A DNA stretch of 64,000 nt, from NCBI GenBank assembly GCA_029553955.1, contig JAKPJZ010000113.1, forward strand, positions 1 to 64,000. Reading direction: 5' to 3'. The notes under the pieces are model-generated. The model made no database searches, was not told where the DNA came from, and was given only the letters and a program-made list of their open reading frames with translations. Numbering within the stretch: position 1 is the stretch's first letter; every line of letters starts with the position of its first letter. Both the position numbers and the translations under genes were made by a program. This document shows positions 20,703 through 28,739 of the stretch, in pieces. This DNA is from Chloroflexota bacterium (lineage in GTDB: Bacteria > Chloroflexota > Anaerolineae > SpSt-313).

Positions 20703-21563
20703 CTACGCCCCCGGCGCCCTGCCCTGCCGGTAGTGCCGCATATAACCGCGCAGGCGCCGGTCGTGGCCGAGGAAGACATCGGCCAGGAGCAGCGCGGCCC
20801 GCACCTGGGCAGCGGTCGGATCGGTGATGGGCGCGTTCATGCCCAGCACGGCCGCGGTGGTCAAAAAGCCGGCATTGACCGCCTGCCGGTCGGGCATGCC
20901 GTAGCTGACGTTCGAGGCGCCGCCGGTGATGCTGTTGGCCGGGAACTCGGCGCGCAGGCGGCGCACGGTCTCGAGCGCGACGCGCGCGGCCTGGTCGTCG
21001 GCGCCCACGGTCATCACCAGCGGGTCGAAGATGATATCCTGCTGCTTGATGCCCGCGCGCAAAGCGGCCTCGAACACCTGGCGCGCCACACAGAGGCGGC
21101 CCTCGACATCGGCCGGGATGCCCCCCTGCCCCATGCACAGCACAACCACCGGCACGCCACGCTCGGCCACGATGGGCAGGTTCTCCTCGAGCACCTTGCG
21201 CTCGCCGCCGATCGAGTTCACCAGCGGCCGCCCCGGGCACACCGCGAGCGCCCGCTCAAGCGCCCGTGGGTCGCGCGTGTCGATGGAGAGCGGCACGTCG
21301 ACCGCCGCGGCCACCGCGCGCACCGCCTCGGGCAAGAGCGCCGCCTCATCGATCCCCTTGCCGCCCACGTTGACGTCGACCAGGGCGGCGCCGGCCGCCA
21401 CCTGGCGCTGCGCTTCGGCGGCCAGGTAGGCCCAATCACGCTCGAGCAGCGCCCGGCGCAGGGCACTCCGGCCGCTGGGGTTGATGCGCTCGCCGATGAT
21501 GCGCGCCGCGCCGTTGGGGTCGAGCGCCAGCGGGCTGCCGGTCCCCTGTACGAGGGTTGTCAT
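20703..21563 (-). CDS. Pterin-binding methyltransferase (corrinoid to tetrahydrofolate)
   Basis: A 286-residue TIM-barrel protein of the dihydropteroate-synthase/MeTr family (AcsE, MtvA, MtrH relatives). Motifs include IIGERINPSGR, ALVDVNVGGKG, SIDTRDPRALERAL and NSIGGERKV, which line the pterin pocket. It is the last gene of the corrinoid operon and most likely moves the methyl group between the corrinoid protein and tetrahydrofolate. I prefer the ATG at 21563; a GTG at 21575 overlapping the upstream stop is an alternative. Length matches AcsE-type enzymes. Confidence 0.87.
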   Translation of the reverse strand: MTTLVQGTGSPLALDPNGAARIIGERINPSGRSALRRALLERDWAYLAAEAQRQVAAGAALVDVNVGGKGIDEAALLPEAVRAVAAAVDVPLSIDTRDPRALERALAVCPGRPLVNSIGGERKVLEENLPIVAERGVPVVVLCMGQGGIPADVEGRLCVARQVFEAALRAGIKQQDIIFDPLVMTVGADDQAARVALETVRRLRAEFPANSITGGASNVSYGMPDRQAVNAGFLTTAAVLGMNAPITDPTAAQVRAALLLADVFLGHDRRLRGYMRHYRQGRAPGA

Positions 21564-21571
21564 GGATGCGC

Positions 21572-22858
21572 TCACCTCGACGTGCGCGCCCTCAGGATCG
21601 TGTCCTCTTCCGGCTGGCCCTTGAGCCACTCGTCGAACGGCTGGAAGGCAGGTGGGTCGACCCGCACTGACGCCAGGTCGGCGGCGATGGGATAGCGGCC
21701 CAGCGTGTGCGTAGCGTGGACGGCCGTGTGGACATTCACCGATGGTGCATCGGCGGGGATGTTGCCGATGAACATGATCAGCCGGCCGTCGCGCCCCAGG
21801 ATGTCGATCCATTCGCGGACCTTGGCCGCAATCTCGGCCGGCGCGCTATCGCGGATGAAGCGGCCGTTCAGCGAGGCCATGATCGGGATCTTGTGCCCAC
21901 CCTTGCCGCGCGATACGGCGTATTCCCGCAGCCAGCGCATATCCAGATCCTGCGTGCGGCCCATGGCCGTGGTCGCCATGTTCATCCCGGCGATCTTGGG
22001 CGCGCTGTCGAGGCACTTGAAGAGCACGGCCTTGTCGAACTTGGCCGGGTCCTCCTCGCAATAGTCGCAGGCGGCTGCCCCGCCGTTCGCCGTCAGGCCG
22101 AGCTCCTTCTTGGCGCGCTCGGCCAGGCGCCTGACCGATGGCAGCACCCACTCCACCACCAGCTCGGGCGTGAGGTTCGGGAAGCAGGCCCAGGCATCAG
22201 GACCTGTGCACGATTTGATGCCGGCCTTGGCGTAGGCCTGCAGGAAGGGCCAGATGGCCTGGTTCTCGGCCCAGTCGAACAGCGCCTGGGCGTAGCCCCG
22301 GTCGCGCTTGAGCGCGCGCACGGCTTTGGGGTAGCCCATCGCCTGGCAGAGCAGACTCCAGGGCGAGCAGAAAAAGCCGGCCGCCAGGGGGCTGGGCGCT
22401 CTCTTGATCGTCAGGCGGGCGCTCTCGACGGCCATCGCGATGCGGCCCTTTGTGGGATCGAGCGGGCCGATGCGGTCCAGGTCGGCCGGCGTTTTGATCA
22501 GCGGGTCGCTGACATCCACGGTGGGCATGGCATTGTCGGAGTAGATCATTTCGGCGCCCAGCGCCTCGACCTCAAAGTTGTAGGCGTCGGGGATGATCGT
22601 GTACGAGTCAAAGCCGTACCAGCGCTGCACGGCGATGTGCACATCGACCAGCAGCTCGGCGTCCCAGTAGTATCTGCGCGCCGGCACCTTGGCGACGGTC
22701 ATGCAGTGATCGTGGCTCTGTGGCCCCATGAAGGGCACTACGTCGGCGTGGTCGCCGGTCATCGCGGCGATGATGCGCGCCGTGCCGCTGGGCTTGCCGA
22801 TGCGGATGCCCTTGCCATAGAGCAACCCATGCACCATCTCGAGAGTAGGATTGGCCAT
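21572..22858 (-). CDS. Uroporphyrinogen-decarboxylase-family methyltransferase
   Basis: A 428-residue UroD-superfamily barrel, the fold of MtaA, MtbA, CmuA and many demethylases. It is not a haem enzyme here: it sits directly between a corrinoid protein (3 bases) and a pterin methyltransferase (8 bases). Cysteines in GGAAACDYCEEDP near the expected C-terminal metal site and HDHCMTVAKV could provide zinc ligands, but the canonical HxC...C pattern is not clear. The probable role is substrate methyltransferase (MT1), since no MttB- or MtaB-type gene is present. The donor is unknown. The ATG at 22858 follows GGAGGG. Confidence 0.82.
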   Translation of the reverse strand: MANPTLEMVHGLLYGKGIRIGKPSGTARIIAAMTGDHADVVPFMGPQSHDHCMTVAKVPARRYYWDAELLVDVHIAVQRWYGFDSYTIIPDAYNFEVEALGAEMIYSDNAMPTVDVSDPLIKTPADLDRIGPLDPTKGRIAMAVESARLTIKRAPSPLAAGFFCSPWSLLCQAMGYPKAVRALKRDRGYAQALFDWAENQAIWPFLQAYAKAGIKSCTGPDAWACFPNLTPELVVEWVLPSVRRLAERAKKELGLTANGGAAACDYCEEDPAKFDKAVLFKCLDSAPKIAGMNMATTAMGRTQDLDMRWLREYAVSRGKGGHKIPIMASLNGRFIRDSAPAEIAAKVREWIDILGRDGRLIMFIGNIPADAPSVNVHTAVHATHTLGRYPIAADLASVRVDPPAFQPFDEWLKGQPEEDTILRARTSR

Positions 22859-22861
22859 CAC

Positions 22862-23503
22862 TCACCCTCCTATCAGCGCGCCGGCCTTCTGCATGGCATC
22901 CAGCGCATCCCTGCCCCAGGCGTCAGCCCCCACCTCGTCGGCGAACTCTTGGCTGGTGGGCACGCCGCCAACCATGACCTTGACCTGCTTCCGCAGCCCC
23001 TGCGCCTCGAGCTCCGCGATAATCGCCTTCATCTCGAGCATCGTTGTCGACATGTAGGCGCCCAGGCCCACAATCACCGGCCGGTGCCCCTTGATCGCCG
23101 CGATGAACCGCTCCGCCGGCACGTCGATGCCGAGGTCGATCACCTCGAACCCCACCGAGGTCAACATGGCCACCACCAGGCTCTTGCCGAGGTCGTGCAT
23201 GTCGCCCTGCACGACGCCGATGACGAATTTGCCGAGGCGCGGCGCCCCACCCTTGCTCAGGTGCGGCTGCAACGGCACCATGCCCGCCTTGAAGGCATCG
23301 GCGGCAAGGATGACGTCGGGCAAAAAGATCTCGTTGGCCCGCCACAGGTCCCCGGCCTTGGTAATGCCGGCCACGACCCCGCGCTGCAGGATCTCGAGCG
23401 GCGGCAGCCCGGCCGCCAGGGCCTGCGTCACCAGCCGGCCGGCCTCCGCGTCCTCTCCTTCGGTCACGGCTGTGCTGATGGCCCGATACGTTTCATCTGA
23501 CAT
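22862..23503 (-). CDS. Corrinoid-binding methyl carrier protein
   Basis: A 213-residue MtaC/MtvC-type protein. Residues 1-85 form the four-helix cap (Met-synthase B12-binding N-domain). The Rossmann B12 domain follows, with the cobalt-ligand motif Asp101-x-His103-x2-Gly106 (QGDMHDLGK) and VIDLGIDVPAERF. It shuttles a methyl group between the UroD-type and pterin-type methyltransferases of the operon. It closely resembles the C-terminal half of the Crp fusion encoded upstream, so the two probably arose by duplication. Confidence 0.93.
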   Translation of the reverse strand: MSDETYRAISTAVTEGEDAEAGRLVTQALAAGLPPLEILQRGVVAGITKAGDLWRANEIFLPDVILAADAFKAGMVPLQPHLSKGGAPRLGKFVIGVVQGDMHDLGKSLVVAMLTSVGFEVIDLGIDVPAERFIAAIKGHRPVIVGLGAYMSTTMLEMKAIIAELEAQGLRKQVKVMVGGVPTSQEFADEVGADAWGRDALDAMQKAGALIGG

Positions 23504-23587: not shown

Positions 23588-25405
23588 CTATGAACCAGCG
23601 GGCAGGCGGGCGCCCTGTGAGAAATAGCGGTTGAACCCAGGGACGACGGTCACCTCGAGATACTCGATGCGCCCGGCCAGCGCCTCGGCCTCACGCCGGC
23701 ACGCGCTCGAGGCCAGCATCATGCGCGCGCCGGCACTGGCGGCGTTGCCCGCGGCCCACACCCGCTCCAGCGGCACGCTGGGCAAGAGCCCAATGCCCAT
23801 GGCGTGGCGCGGGTCGAGATAGCTGCCGAACGCGCCTGCGATCACCACCTCCTCGATGCGCGCCGGCTCGACGCCCAGGTGGTCCATGAGGATATCGATC
23901 CCCGCGCGGATGGCCCCCTTGGCCAACAGCACCTGGTCGATGTCGTGCTGGGTGATGCAGACGGCGCGGCGGCCCTCGCCACCCGGCGCCAGCGTGAAAG
24001 CCGGCATGTCGTCGTCCTCGCGCATGACGCCGGGCATGCCGGCGACCATGCGCCCGCGCGCGTTGATGATGCCGGCGCTGCGCATCTCGGCCAGTGCGGC
24101 GATGACGCCCGAGCCGCAAATGCCGGCCGCCGAGCCGCCGCCGATCACGTCGCAACGCACCTCGCCGCCGGCAATCGCCACCCGCTCGATGGCCCCCGGC
24201 GCCGCACGCATGCCGTGCCGGATGTGCGCGCCCTCAAAGGCGGGGCCCGACGCGGTGGAGCACGACACGATGCGCGCACCCGTCTGGAGCGCGATTTCGG
24301 TGTTGGTGCCGATGTCGATGCCCAGCCGCACCGGTTCGCTGCGGCCGAAACCGGCGGCGAGGAGGAAGGCCAGGTGATCCGAGCCGACAAAGCCGGCGAT
24401 GGGCGGCGGCAGGTAGGCCTGGGCCCCCGGGGCAGCCCGCAGGCCCAACTGCCCGGCGCCGACCGAGAGGGATGAGTTGAGCGCGGCCACAAAGGGCGAC
24501 ACGGCCAGCGGTTGCACCGGCAGCCCGGCCAACAAGTGGTGCATGGCCGTGTTGCCTACCAGGCAAATGTCGAGCAGATGCTCGGGCATGAGGCCCAGGG
24601 TGGCCGTCAGCTCGGCAGCAGCGCCGTTGATGGCCTGCGCCACTTCCTGCTGCAGCCGGGTGGCCTTGGCCGGCTCGACCAGCGCCGCTTCCAGCCGCGA
24701 CATGACATCTTCGCCATAGGCAATCTGCGGGTTCATCACGCCCGTGGCGGCCAGCGTCTGGCCCGATTGCAGATCGACCAGGTAACAGGCAAGCTTGGTG
24801 GTGCCGACATCGACGGCCAGCCCAAGGGGAGGCGGGGCCGCGCCGGGGTAAGCGCCGATAATCTCGTCGCCGCGGAGGGCAATGGCGACGCGCCAGCCCG
24901 ACGATCGCAGCGCCGTGCGCAGCGCGCCCAGCGTGGCCAGGCCCGCTCGCGCCTCGCCGATCCCCTGCTCGCGGCGCAGGGCGGCGCGCACTCGCTCCAG
25001 GTCGGCCACTTGGTCGGCCAGAGTCGGCGGCGCGACGGCGAGCGGCACGATGCGCACCTCTCCCGTGGGAGCCACGCTGACCTCGGCGCCCTCGGTCTGC
25101 GCCACCTGGACCTCGAGCGCCGAGACCGGCGGGATGTAGACCGACGCATTGGCCGAGACCATGACACGGCACGCCAGCCGCCAGCCGCCGGCGAGTTGCT
25201 CGGCGCTGAGGTGGTGTCGCTCCGCGGCGCTGGGCGGCAGCGGGTCTCCCCGCTCGATGCGCACCAGGCACTTGCCGCAGACCCCTTTGCCGCCACACAC
25301 CGAGCGCAGGCCGGCGCCCGCCCGGCGCGCCGCCTCGGCGATGGCCAGCGGCCCATCGCACAGCAGGCGAATGCCGCTTGGCTGAAAGTCGATGGTGAAG
25401 GACAT
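23588..25405 (-). CDS. RACo-like reductive activator of corrinoid proteins ([2Fe-2S] plus ASKHA ATPase)
   Basis: A 605-residue protein. The N-terminal ferredoxin-type [2Fe-2S] site is Cys37-x5-Cys43-x2-Cys46 with Cys79. A linker follows, then an ASKHA/DUF4445 ATPase: LGLAVDVGTTKLACYLVDL for phosphate binding, RLGIDIGTNTEIAL and ICGSGVIAALAEM. This is RACo architecture rather than RamA, which carries C-terminal 4Fe-4S clusters. It should use ATP and a low-potential electron to rescue Co(II) to Co(I) when the corrinoid protein is oxidised. It lies between the regulator and its presumed partner corrinoid gene. Confidence 0.9.
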   Translation of the reverse strand: MSFTIDFQPSGIRLLCDGPLAIAEAARRAGAGLRSVCGGKGVCGKCLVRIERGDPLPPSAAERHHLSAEQLAGGWRLACRVMVSANASVYIPPVSALEVQVAQTEGAEVSVAPTGEVRIVPLAVAPPTLADQVADLERVRAALRREQGIGEARAGLATLGALRTALRSSGWRVAIALRGDEIIGAYPGAAPPPLGLAVDVGTTKLACYLVDLQSGQTLAATGVMNPQIAYGEDVMSRLEAALVEPAKATRLQQEVAQAINGAAAELTATLGLMPEHLLDICLVGNTAMHHLLAGLPVQPLAVSPFVAALNSSLSVGAGQLGLRAAPGAQAYLPPPIAGFVGSDHLAFLLAAGFGRSEPVRLGIDIGTNTEIALQTGARIVSCSTASGPAFEGAHIRHGMRAAPGAIERVAIAGGEVRCDVIGGGSAAGICGSGVIAALAEMRSAGIINARGRMVAGMPGVMREDDDMPAFTLAPGGEGRRAVCITQHDIDQVLLAKGAIRAGIDILMDHLGVEPARIEEVVIAGAFGSYLDPRHAMGIGLLPSVPLERVWAAGNAASAGARMMLASSACRREAEALAGRIEYLEVTVVPGFNRYFSQGARLPAGS

Positions 25406-25515
25406 CTGGCTTCGTGGCCTTTCTGTACTTGTACAAGAGAGGCTATGGTCATTGTAGCACATTGTCGGCGGCGTAGGTGTCGTCTGGGCGACACTTGAGA
25501 GGTGGAGAGAGCGGT

Positions 25516-26820
25516 CTAGTGCTTCGGATTCATCAGCCGCCAGGCCAGCTCGGCAGCGCCGTGCGCGGAAGGCTCGTAGCCGTCGGCCCCCATCTGGGTG
25601 CCCATGCGGCGCGTGACCGCGCTGCCGCCCACCATGACCTTGACCCCGCCCCTCAGGCCTTCCCGCGCCAGGGTGTCGATGACCTTGGAGAGCTCCTGGG
25701 TCGTGGTGGTCATGAGCGACGACATGGCCAGGATGCCGGGCCTGTGCCTAGCCACCGCAGCGGCAAAGCGCTCTGCGGGCACGTTGGCCCCCAGGTCGAT
25801 CACCGCAAAGCCGCGCGCCCTGAGCAGCATGGCGACCATGGTCTGCCCGATGTCGTGGATATCGCCATAGACCGTGCCGATGACAACGGTGCCCAGGTAG
25901 CCGACCACCTGGCCCGTGCGCTCGATCTCGGCATCTATGATGGGCATGGCGCTCTTCATGGCAAAGGCCGCCAGGATCACGTCGGAGACTTGCAGCTCGT
26001 CGCGGCTGAACAGCCCGTCGACCCGCCGCATGCCGCTCGAGAGCGCCTCCAGCGCCTTGATGGCGTCCACGCCGTGAGCGACCGCCGCGCCGGCCCAGCG
26101 CCGGGCGGCCACTTCATCGCCATCCAGCACGGCCTGGCTCAGGCTGTCGAGGATTTCCACATGCTGCGGCGGCACCATGACCAGGTGCCGTCCCTCGCTC
26201 CAGAGGTAGCCTTGTTTCTTGAGCTCGCTGATGCAGGCGGTGATGGTGGTGCGGTTGGCAGCCACCAATGCGCCCATCTCTTCATGAGTGATATCAAGGT
26301 CGATGCGAACGCCGTCGGGGGTAGCGATGCCGTGCCGCCGAGCCAGCTCGAGCAGGCGATGCTTGAGGCGCTGCTGCACATCGAGAAAGCCGAGCTCGCG
26401 CACCTTGCCGGCAAGCGAAGCGGTGCCCTGGGCGAGGTATCTCATCACGAGCAGAGAAAAGCGGGGGTTGCCGGCCAGCAGGCGATCGAACTCGTCGGGG
26501 AGGAGCGTGATGACCTCCGTATCCTCCAAGGCGACGGCCTGTGTTTCGTGATGCTTGCCGAGCAGATAAGTGGCTGCGCCGTCCAGCCCGCCCGCGCCGA
26601 GGATGTCGTAGGTGTAGGTCCTGCCTTGCGGCGAGGTCGTGCACACCTTGACCGCGCCGCTGCGCACGATGTAGATGGCTTCGACCGGGTCGCCCTGCCA
26701 GTGAAGGATGCTCCCCTTGGCGAACCGCGCCAGCCGGCCGGCGCGCAAGGTGCCCGCCAGGTGCAGCAAGTCTGCATCAGGATCGTGAGGTTGCCAGCCA
26801 TCGTGCCCGCCATCGTTCAT
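25516..26820 (-). CDS. Crp/Fnr-type regulator fused to a corrinoid-binding module
   Basis: A 434-residue fusion. Residues about 25-125 are a cyclic-nucleotide-binding-like domain (FAKGSILHWQGDPVEAIYIVRSGAVKV); 150-215 a Crp winged helix (THEEMGALVAANRTTITACI). After a short hinge, 225-300 is the corrinoid cap and 308-432 a B12 domain with Asp320-x-His322-x2-Gly325 (YGDIHDIGQ), followed by VIDLGANVPAERF. The cobalt-ligating His is present, so cofactor binding is expected. The ATG overlaps the previous stop (ATGA). A reasonable hypothesis is that methylation or oxidation of its corrinoid controls DNA binding at this operon; no experiment is implied. The fold differs from MerR-type CarH. Confidence 0.9.
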   Translation of the reverse strand: MNDGGHDGWQPHDPDADLLHLAGTLRAGRLARFAKGSILHWQGDPVEAIYIVRSGAVKVCTTSPQGRTYTYDILGAGGLDGAATYLLGKHHETQAVALEDTEVITLLPDEFDRLLAGNPRFSLLVMRYLAQGTASLAGKVRELGFLDVQQRLKHRLLELARRHGIATPDGVRIDLDITHEEMGALVAANRTTITACISELKKQGYLWSEGRHLVMVPPQHVEILDSLSQAVLDGDEVAARRWAGAAVAHGVDAIKALEALSSGMRRVDGLFSRDELQVSDVILAAFAMKSAMPIIDAEIERTGQVVGYLGTVVIGTVYGDIHDIGQTMVAMLLRARGFAVIDLGANVPAERFAAAVARHRPGILAMSSLMTTTTQELSKVIDTLAREGLRGGVKVMVGGSAVTRRMGTQMGADGYEPSAHGAAELAWRLMNPKH

Positions 26821-27515
26821 TGCTCACCCTGTCCCTCTGACGCAGAACGCCGGTCGCAGGCGCCGTTCCACACGCAGCGGCTGCAACTCCCCAGGCACTG
26901 GCGGCCCGCTGGGCTGCTGCCCACCAACAGCACGAATGAGAGCGACTTGGCCGGGAACATGACGTTGTGCTCCGACAGGCGCACGCCGATGGCATCGGCG
27001 GGCAGCAGGGCGAAGAGCATGCGCTGCGACTCCATGGCCCAGTCGCCCTCGCCGTCGCCGGGGGCCCAGCGCGCCGCGTTGCGCCCGGCGCGCACCAGGC
27101 GCTCGACGTGCTGCGCCAGCCCGGCCACCGCCAGCGCGCCGGCCTGGTCGAGCAGATAGCCGCGCGTGTACTCCTGCGCGGCAAAGTGACGCTGCGCCTG
27201 CGCCTCGAGCGCTTCGCCGATGGTGCAGACCACGCCGATCAGCGTGCTGACGCCGGCGAGGTGCGCGGCGGGTATGCCGGGCAACAGCGCCTCCGCCAGG
27301 CCGGCGGCCTCGACCTCCGCCCACACCGCCGCCGGCTGCAGCAGCGCCCGCGCCTCGGCGATGGTCAGCTCGGCGCTCTTGACGATGGCCTCCGGCGGAC
27401 GCCGCCGCCGGCCCAATGAACGGCATAACGTATCGAGATCGGGCAAAACATCGCCGGCATCGGGCCGCAGCACGCCAAGCGCCGGCCCGGTGCTCAGATT
27501 CGGCTCCAAAGCCAC
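26817..27515 (-). CDS. Methionine-synthase activation-domain-like protein
   Basis: A 232-residue protein resembling the MetH reactivation domain (PF02965): WAMESQRMLFALLPADAIGVRLSEHNVMFPAKSLSFVLLVG corresponds to the region that contacts corrinoid and S-adenosylmethionine. The C-terminus has a cysteine cluster, CLGSCSRCVWNGACDRR, found in stand-alone versions within corrinoid methyltransferase operons. It is the first gene, so it is probably an accessory for corrinoid handling or reactivation. The GTG at 27515 is the best-supported start, with GAAGGA upstream. The identification rests on motif resemblance. Confidence 0.75.
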   Translation of the reverse strand: MALEPNLSTGPALGVLRPDAGDVLPDLDTLCRSLGRRRRPPEAIVKSAELTIAEARALLQPAAVWAEVEAAGLAEALLPGIPAAHLAGVSTLIGVVCTIGEALEAQAQRHFAAQEYTRGYLLDQAGALAVAGLAQHVERLVRAGRNAARWAPGDGEGDWAMESQRMLFALLPADAIGVRLSEHNVMFPAKSLSFVLLVGSSPAGRQCLGSCSRCVWNGACDRRSASEGQGEQ

Positions 27516-27555
27516 GGTTCGCTCATCCTTCCCCAAGCCCACCCTACGCCCCCAG

Positions 27556-27564
27556 ATTATACCA
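27556..27564 (-). promoter_or_regulatory. Extended -10 promoter of the corrinoid operon
   Basis: TGGTATAAT on the minus strand (TGn plus TATAAT, 27564-27556). No good -35 box lies 17 bases upstream, which is compatible with activator dependence. Transcription would start near 27549, about 34 bases before the GTG at 27515. Confidence 0.65.
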
Positions 27565-27645
27565 CAGTGTCCATGATCGCGGCGCTCACTACCGCGCACC
27601 AACACCCCCTCCTGGCCCGGCTATCACCAGCACGCTGTGTGGGGA

Positions 27646-27674
27646 TTGACAAATCTGCGGCAATCGGGTATAAT
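27646..27674 (+). promoter_or_regulatory. Consensus promoter TTGACA-17-TATAAT for lacI-sugar operon
   Basis: Both hexamers are perfect and spaced 17 bases, ending 51 bases before the lacI ATG. Confidence 0.93.
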
Positions 27675-27684
27675 GCATGAGGAA

Positions 27685-27698
27685 CGTAAGCGTTTGCG
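27685..27698. promoter_or_regulatory. LacI-type operator CGTAAGCGTTTGCG
   Basis: A near-palindrome with the CG centre typical of LacI-family sites (compare TGTAAGCGCTTACA). It covers the predicted start of transcription, where bound repressor would block the promoter. Autoregulation by the adjacent LacI protein is inferred. Confidence 0.7.
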
Positions 27699-27725
27699 TG
27701 GTTGTTGCGTAGATAAGGACATGAG

Positions 27726-28739
27726 ATGCCTGCCCGGATCGATGACATTGCCCGCCACCTCGGAGTCTCCGCCGCGTCGGTCTCGCGCGCCCTCAATGAC
27801 CGCCCAGGCGTGAGTGAGGAGCTGCGCCGGCGCATCCTCGCCGCCGCCCACGAGCTGGACTTTGCCCCCAATATGGCCGCCCGCGGCCTGGCGACGCAGC
27901 GCACGCAGATGATGGGCCTGGTGCTGGGCAAGAAAGAGACGCCCCTCGACGCGGACCCGTTCTACCCCCTGATCACCCACGGCGCCGAGGCCTGCCTGGC
28001 CGAGCAGGGCTATCACCTCATCCTGACCACCGTCGACGGCACCCAGGCAGCCAGCGACCTGGCGTTCAAGCTCGTCAGAGAGCAGCGGGTCGACGGCCTG
28101 ATCCTGGCCGGGCCCGATATCAGCCCCGCCTTCATCCTCGCCATGCGGCAGAGCGGCGTGCCCTGCGTATTGGTCGACAACTGCCTGCAGGAGACGCGCA
28201 TCGACTGCGTCGTCTCCGACGACCAGGCCGGCGCAGCCGCGGCGGTGCAACACCTGCTGCAGCACGGGCACCAGGATGTGCTCTGCCTCAGCGGCCCGCA
28301 AGAATGGGCCTCGAGCCGCGAGCGCAGCCAGGGCTACCACACGGCGATGCGAGAGGCCGGCCTGGCCGAGCGGGCGCGGGTGATGCCCGCCGCCAAGACC
28401 ACCATCGACACCGGCCAGGACTTGCTGCAACAGGCCTTCGCCGAGGGCCTGCGCCCGAGCGCCGTCTTTGCCATCAACGACTCTATGGCCATCGGCGCCA
28501 TGCGCGCCGCCCAGGCCATGGGGCTGCGCCTGCCCGAGGACCTGGCCGTGATCGGCTTTGACGATATCTCGTGGGCCGAGCTGGCCACGCCGCCCCTGAC
28601 GACCGTGCGCATCTACAAAGAGGAACTCGGCGCGCTGGCCGCCCGGCGGCTGCTGGACCTGTTGGCGCACGCCGAGAGCCCGCCGGTGCGCAGCGTCGTG
28701 GGCACACAACTGGTGCTGCGTCGCTCCTGCGGCTGCTGA
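27726..28739 (+). CDS. LacI-family transcriptional repressor
   Basis: A 337-residue repressor. N-terminal helix-turn-helix and hinge: [36 protein letters not shown] periplasmic-binding-protein-like sensor domain (about 60-330) carries VDGLILAG and [13 protein letters not shown]-type signatures. AAGGA precedes the ATG at 27726. It heads a sugar-uptake operon with a binding protein, two permeases and a GH130 enzyme, so the effector is probably a sugar imported or released by that system. Confidence 0.92.

Follow-up and report, generated by a model that had tools for sequence, protein, structure and literature searches.

To our knowledge, the transcription regulators known to contain a B12-binding domain are light sensors of the MerR type, and how particular corrinoid methyltransferase systems are switched on in anaerobes is little understood. 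CarH, CarA and LitR are one-component proteins in which an N-terminal DNA-binding domain is followed by a C-terminal helical cap and a MetH-type Rossmann B12 domain, with the His of an E/DxHxxG motif as the putative lower ligand. Crp proteins are the best understood type of bacterial activator; members of the Crp/Fnr superfamily such as CRP, NtcA, GlxR and CooA combine a sensor β-barrel, a long helix and a winged helix with operators placed in class II fashion. One Crp/Fnr regulator, CprK of Desulfitobacterium, controls genes for a corrinoid-dependent enzyme (reductive dehalogenase); it has no B12 domain, binds TTAAT-N4-ATTAA and senses o-chlorophenols in its β-barrel (PMC2610375). SignatureFinder reports B12 domains fused to HTH, DGC, GAF, MEDS and other domains, with 'Crp' appearing only in a reference (PMC11796333). 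B12-dependent regulators and Crp regulators are each known, but the open-access papers searched contained no example of a Crp regulator combined with a methyl-carrier-type corrinoid domain and the operator described below. That search, in which absence is no proof, also returned no Crp-type corrinoid regulator, in agreement with the original prediction, whose author knew of none that had been characterised.

The protein described here is encoded in a 64-kb window (the whole stretch of DNA analysed), and the features of its locus are collected in Table 1. We consider it probable that this protein is a one-component, corrinoid-responsive class II activator of the Crp type that acts on the adjoining methyltransferase operon, usually with one such regulator per operon. 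Four Pfam models match it above cut-off, namely cNMP_binding (residues 32-116, 6e-18), HTH_Crp_2 (residues 150-212, 7e-12), the corrinoid cap B12-binding_2 (residues 224-294, 3e-12) and B12-binding (residues 311-416, 2e-22). Together with the residues D320, H322 and G325, these matches bear out the original prediction of an uninterrupted 434-residue reading frame, here on the minus strand, that joins a Crp protein to a corrinoid module. An AlphaFold2 model (mean pLDDT 81.8; pTM 0.63, so that domain orientation is uncertain) resembles in Foldseek searches both the carriers MttC (7xcn) and MtmC (3ezx) and the Crp-type proteins NtcA, GlxR and CRP, in line with both halves of the predicted fusion. 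The protein shares the sensor β-barrel, long helix and winged helix with Crp/Fnr proteins, to which it adds a C-terminal corrinoid module of 210 residues. It shares the order of its DNA-binding and B12 parts with CarH, but has a Crp sensor and winged helix (HTH_Crp) in place of MerR, the distinction that had been drawn from the first. The corrinoid half has the cap, B12 fold and DxHxxG motif of the MttC, MtmC and MtaC carriers (7xcn, 3ezx, 2i2x).

Table 1. Features of the fusion regulator locus (window positions).
Feature	Position	Strand	Remarks
Fusion regulator, 434 aa	25516..26820	-	ATG at 26820, stop 25516-25518; single uninterrupted ORF
Codons D320-I-H322-D-I-G325, putative lower cobalt-ligand motif DxHxxG	25846..25863	-	From ORF coordinates; invariant in 11 aligned fusions
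-10-like hexamer TACAAT	25451..25456	-	21 nt after operator; no -35 hexamer
Candidate operator TGTCGCCCAGACGACA, palindrome TGTYG-N6-CRACA	25478..25493	-	23 bp beyond fusion stop
RACo-like corrinoid reductive activator (2Fe-2S + ASKHA)	23588..25405	-	Likely start ATG 25405 (MSFTIDFQ)
Operon's own corrinoid methyl carrier, MtaC/MtgC-like	22862..23503	-	Profile searches
URO-D family methyltransferase, MtaA/CmuA-like	21572..22861	-	Profile searches
Methyltetrahydrofolate:corrinoid methyltransferase (Pterin_bind, MeTr type)	20703..21563	-	Start predicted from L072 homologue
Weakly MetH-activation-domain-like protein, C-terminal Cys cluster	26817..27605	-	Upstream of fusion, overlapping it by 4 bp

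Thirteen fusion proteins are known, that of the window and 12 further ones from its own and other genomes. In the window's own genome (G000) a paralogue, also intact, lies on a different contig (G000:C59:2486-3754; 46% over residues 10-433). Copies are present in G054 (52%), G024 (41%) and G271, two are held by G474, a genome from another class of the phylum, and a scan of GTDB contigs gave the fusions at loci L068-L074, of which L074 is the G024 copy. At the thresholds used, the full fusion was found in 4 of the 396 sampled genomes of the class and in one further genome among 400 sampled from the phylum; the family is rare and restricted to a few anaerobes, almost all of them Chloroflexota. 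The taxa named with a fusion are Anaerolineales, Anaerolinea, Anaerolineae and Thermoflexia. Nearly all the sequences are MAG contigs, and the assembly to which the window belongs has a completeness of 92% and a contamination of 8%. The fusion at L073 (JAAZIN010000062.1), from a MAG labelled Bacillota, is very close to the Anaerolinea copies, and this MAG may be misbinned or the gene recently transferred. Because an intact paralogue lies on a second contig and fusions occur in other genomes, we rejected the reading in which a sequencing error had joined two separate genes. All 13 fusions, which come from several genomes and separate contigs, have the same domain order and the same junction; no point in favour of such an artefact was found, and we give it practically no chance.

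Scored with an HMM built from their Crp halves, the fusions reached 297-349 bits, against 144 bits for the best stand-alone Crp. In trees of the B12 domains the fusions group together and with a few carriers, some of them adjoining MTTB genes. A quick tree built without constraint placed the long-branch fusion L074 among the carriers and needed two label changes; when all 13 fusions were constrained to one clade the fit was better, the likelihood rising by 6.85 (AU p 0.68), and a single origin of the fusions is compatible with these data. Stand-alone MttC-type carriers are the closest relatives of the B12 halves. At seven loci the B12 half is only 31-39% identical to the carrier encoded in its operon, rising to 54% at L171, where the carrier is MttC-like. 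For the window itself the figure is 38%, and MttC-type carriers are nearer; the resemblance to the operon's methyl carrier stated in the original prediction is not supported. Capture of this half from the local carrier was rejected for the window on the same-operon identities and the clustering of the fusions. The low same-operon identity and the tree grouping suggest that the sensor domain was probably derived from an MttC-like carrier.

Read along the minus strand, the window has the gene at 26817-27605, the fusion, RACo, carrier, URO-D methyltransferase and MeTr in succession, which agrees with the predicted placement of the fusion in a corrinoid methyltransferase operon. The same linkage holds in 10/10 loci with enough sequence, each having methyltransferase or carrier genes (URO-D, MTTB or carrier type) downstream on the same strand; the contigs of L068, L071 and L073 stop inside the fusion or just past it. 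L072 contains the same gene set as the window in the order fusion, carrier, URO-D, MeTr, DUF1638, RACo, and L074 has fusion, carrier, URO-D, RACo. The fusion is followed by a methyltransferase and then a carrier at L069, L070, L148 and L149 (the L149 methyltransferase, without a Pfam match, being named by resemblance only), by MTTB at L151, by a carrier and a DUF1638-like protein at L171, and at L172 by TctC genes and, farther on, a URO-D-like ORF named by eye from resemblance only. Divergence of the regulators is correlated with that of the carriers (Mantel r 0.86), as expected if each regulator keeps to its operon type, although this co-divergence may reflect merely the shared ancestry of whole clusters. 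Linkage to methyltransferase genes and grouping with methyl carriers both set the fusions apart from CarH.

The gene overlapping the start of the fusion gene may have its true start at a GTG at about 27515. Its product has no model match in Pfam or NCBIfam, matches the MetH activation domain 1J6R weakly (E 0.056) and has the C-terminal Cys cluster CSRCVWNGAC. A homologue lies directly upstream of the L068 fusion (L068:4095-4778), giving linkage to fusions in two genomes, and we speculate that this translationally coupled protein could reset the sensor. On its far side, at window positions 27620-27726, lie a consensus promoter (TTGACA-17-TATAAT) and a repeat resembling a LacI-type operator; they belong to a divergent gene of the LacI family, after which come sugar ABC transporter genes.

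A palindrome with the consensus TGTYGYCYAGVCRACA lies just past the stop codon of the fusion gene and ahead of the next genes, which are nearly always corrinoid-methyltransferase genes. The form TGTTG-N6-CAACA was present in 5/24 intergenic stretches, whereas 50 shuffles gave 3 at most (4-base half-sites). The more general TGTYG-N6-CRACA is placed between 4 bp before and 295 bp after the fusion stop at 10 loci. The window copy is the sole match to the pattern in 64 kb, where 0.18 are expected. A scoring matrix was built from the five discovery loci only, the window, L148, L151, L171, L068 and L072 being held out; with this matrix the fusion-adjacent site outscored every other 16-mer of its whole locus in 6/6 held-out loci. 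The L072 copy departs from the pattern at one position and is followed by a poor -10; at L071, where the contig runs on for just 119 bp past the gene, there is a half-site but no full one. Across the 5.4-Mb genome of the window the pattern TGTYGYCYNRRCRACA occurs in exactly two places, one adjoining each fusion gene. A related pattern is present in 29/396 genomes of the class, and none of the 12 background sites fetched from non-fusion genomes had corrinoid genes nearby. The DNA target originally proposed, at 27516-27645, is not supported: the best 16-mer in that intergenic region, between the MetH-activation-like and LacI genes, scored 5.8, compared with 20.9 for 25478-25493. Nor was a common palindrome found upstream of the fusion genes themselves in the intergenic stretches scanned.

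The recognition helix seems compatible with the candidate operator. The fusions have in common R190, T192 (with minor exchanges) and T194. R190 aligns with the Arg by which CRP recognises the first G in TGTGA; this G is kept in both operators, whereas the Glu and second Arg of CRP, and the second G of its site, are changed. The candidate operator TGTYG-N6-CRACA thus differs from the Crp/Fnr site TGTGA-N6-TCACA in a pattern that seems consistent with its belonging to the fusion protein.

The placement of the site resembles that of a class II activator. A TAnnnT hexamer begins 20-22 nt past the palindrome in 10/11 fusion loci, with the highest score at 21 nt (shuffle p 4e-8, combined from 12 sites), and this spacing puts the operator centre at about -41.5. 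Matches to a -35 hexamer at the fusion operators are just 1-4 of 6. CRP is bound at -41.5, the class II position, at gal (PMC7192510), and a poor -35 with this -10 spacing is as expected for CRP bound there. The first ATG of the RACo ORF (25462) falls inside this promoter, so the true start is probably ATG 25405. By its arrangement, the palindrome with its N6 spacer would be an operator placed as for class II activation; that of CarH consists of direct repeats. A site at -41.5 could also serve repression, the dimer blocking the promoter until its corrinoid state changes; the candidate operator overlaps the -35 region, where repressors can act too, and CarA and CarH act as repressors at an operator that covers the -35 element (PMC8156234). 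The poor -35 hexamers and the class II -10 spacing speak against corrinoid-controlled repression, which we think unlikely, and would favour activation.

Turning to the sensor, the Glu and Arg of the cyclic-nucleotide cassette (GE...RS/TA) are lost in 13/13 fusions, whereas the stand-alone Crp loci L077, L078 and L080 keep both. With the phosphate-binding cassette absent, cAMP sensing was rejected. Cassette and recognition helix were compared in all 13 fusions, and the other residue tallies come from an alignment of 11. D320, H322 and G325 are invariant in the 11/11 tallied, and S367 and G398-G399 are conserved in all fusion rows covering them; with DxHxxG, the downstream Ser and GG, the fusions have the sequence features of MetH-type (base-off/His-on) corrinoid-binding proteins. 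The cap is less conservative. G268, an aromatic residue at 277 and P279 (window numbering) are all three kept in 58/58 carriers, but the fusions are largely changed there, having D/E268 in 11/11, an aromatic 277 in 1/11 (mostly acidic or polar) and P279 in 4/11. Aromatic or hydrophobic residues are mostly retained at 271, 278 and 281 of the cap; on our own count these positions are those of F708, L715 and V718 in MetH, which lie over the upper face.

Close to where the cassette Arg would be, His91 (window 26548-26550, minus strand) is kept in 12/13 fusions and is a possible second ligand or structural site. This residue and the altered cap would suit a protein whose B12 half is vestigial or structural, serving dimerisation or methyltransferase docking with no corrinoid bound, and whose Crp half senses another ligand, for instance near His91. 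Such a protein seems improbable to us, since invariant D320, H322 and G325 in 11 fusions and the conserved S367 and G398-G399 are hard to explain without corrinoid binding.

Sharing with CarH the general pair of a cap and an E/DxHxxG Rossmann domain, the fusions might also be AdoCbl-dependent green-light photoreceptors. At the positions of CarH W131, E141 and H142, however, they have mostly F/Y, then V/I and M/I/V, and their ligand motif is DxHxxG, not ExHxxG; nine CarH-like proteins of Chloroflexota keep the W and EH of the cap and have E-x-H as ligand motif. The CarH model gave the window protein just 33 bits (cut-off 400), over the B12 half. The W..EH signature is absent from all fusions examined, and light sensing of the CarH kind, raised with the original prediction, is very unlikely.

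The class II activator that we favour would work as follows. A Crp/Fnr-superfamily regulator no longer able to sense cyclic nucleotides would use its fused methyltransferase-type corrinoid domain as the sensor, the corrinoid being held base-off/His-on by H322. Its dimer would bind TGTYG-N6-CRACA, centred at about -41.5, at the promoter that lies immediately past the regulator gene, and corrinoid loading or the cobalt/methyl state would decide the DNA-binding or activating form of the dimer. Class II activation of the downstream operon, in the window RACo, carrier, URO-D methyltransferase and MeTr, would result. The signal is probably specific to each operon, and a methylation or redox state that depends on the cognate methyltransferase would fit this better than a global signal of corrinoid supply. 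The original prediction also had the RACo-like protein possibly acting on the regulator. A particular version, which we put forward tentatively, is a substrate sensor: the cognate methyltransferase would pass the methyl group of the substrate to the regulator's cobalt, or a reactivator reset it, and methyl-Co(III) as against Co(I)/Co(II) would switch the activator, one per operon. Sensing of corrinoid supply, a sub-case differing in the signal, is nearly as likely as an operon-specific signal and also only a possibility; the regulator would distinguish holo from apo forms only, and the operon would be made when cofactor is available. The strictly kept lower-ligand motif and the changed carrier cap residues would accord with it, as if docking for methyl transfer were unneeded, but G000 and G474 each have two paralogues, each with its own cluster, which would be redundant for a global signal. 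Because there is mostly one regulator per operon, two copies occur in each of these genomes and regulators co-diverge with carriers, we favour the operon-specific signal.

Direct sensing by cells of a corrinoid, or of its methylation state, becomes a testable question because a predicted operator and promoter are at hand. The operator offers a route to operons controlled by such regulators in uncultured Chloroflexota, and the fusion regulator with its operator is a possible part for corrinoid biosensors.

Several further operator-like sites were noted. The window's own genome has two more with one mismatch (G000:C112:48736-48751 and G000:C187:31890-31905), and at L172 a second, weaker one (L172:7715-7730) lies in the fusion's cluster, upstream of another TctC-like gene. 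A good site at L152:9620-9635 (G015:C3), with no -10 in place, is near an MttC-type carrier and an MTTB-like gene in an assembly with no fusion gene. At L176 (G385:C7), one of the 12 background sites, the perfect palindrome TGTTGTCTAGACAACA has a stand-alone Crp some 460 bp away; the recognition helix of this Crp, NRTTV, is similar, and the protein may be a relative that lacks the B12 domain.
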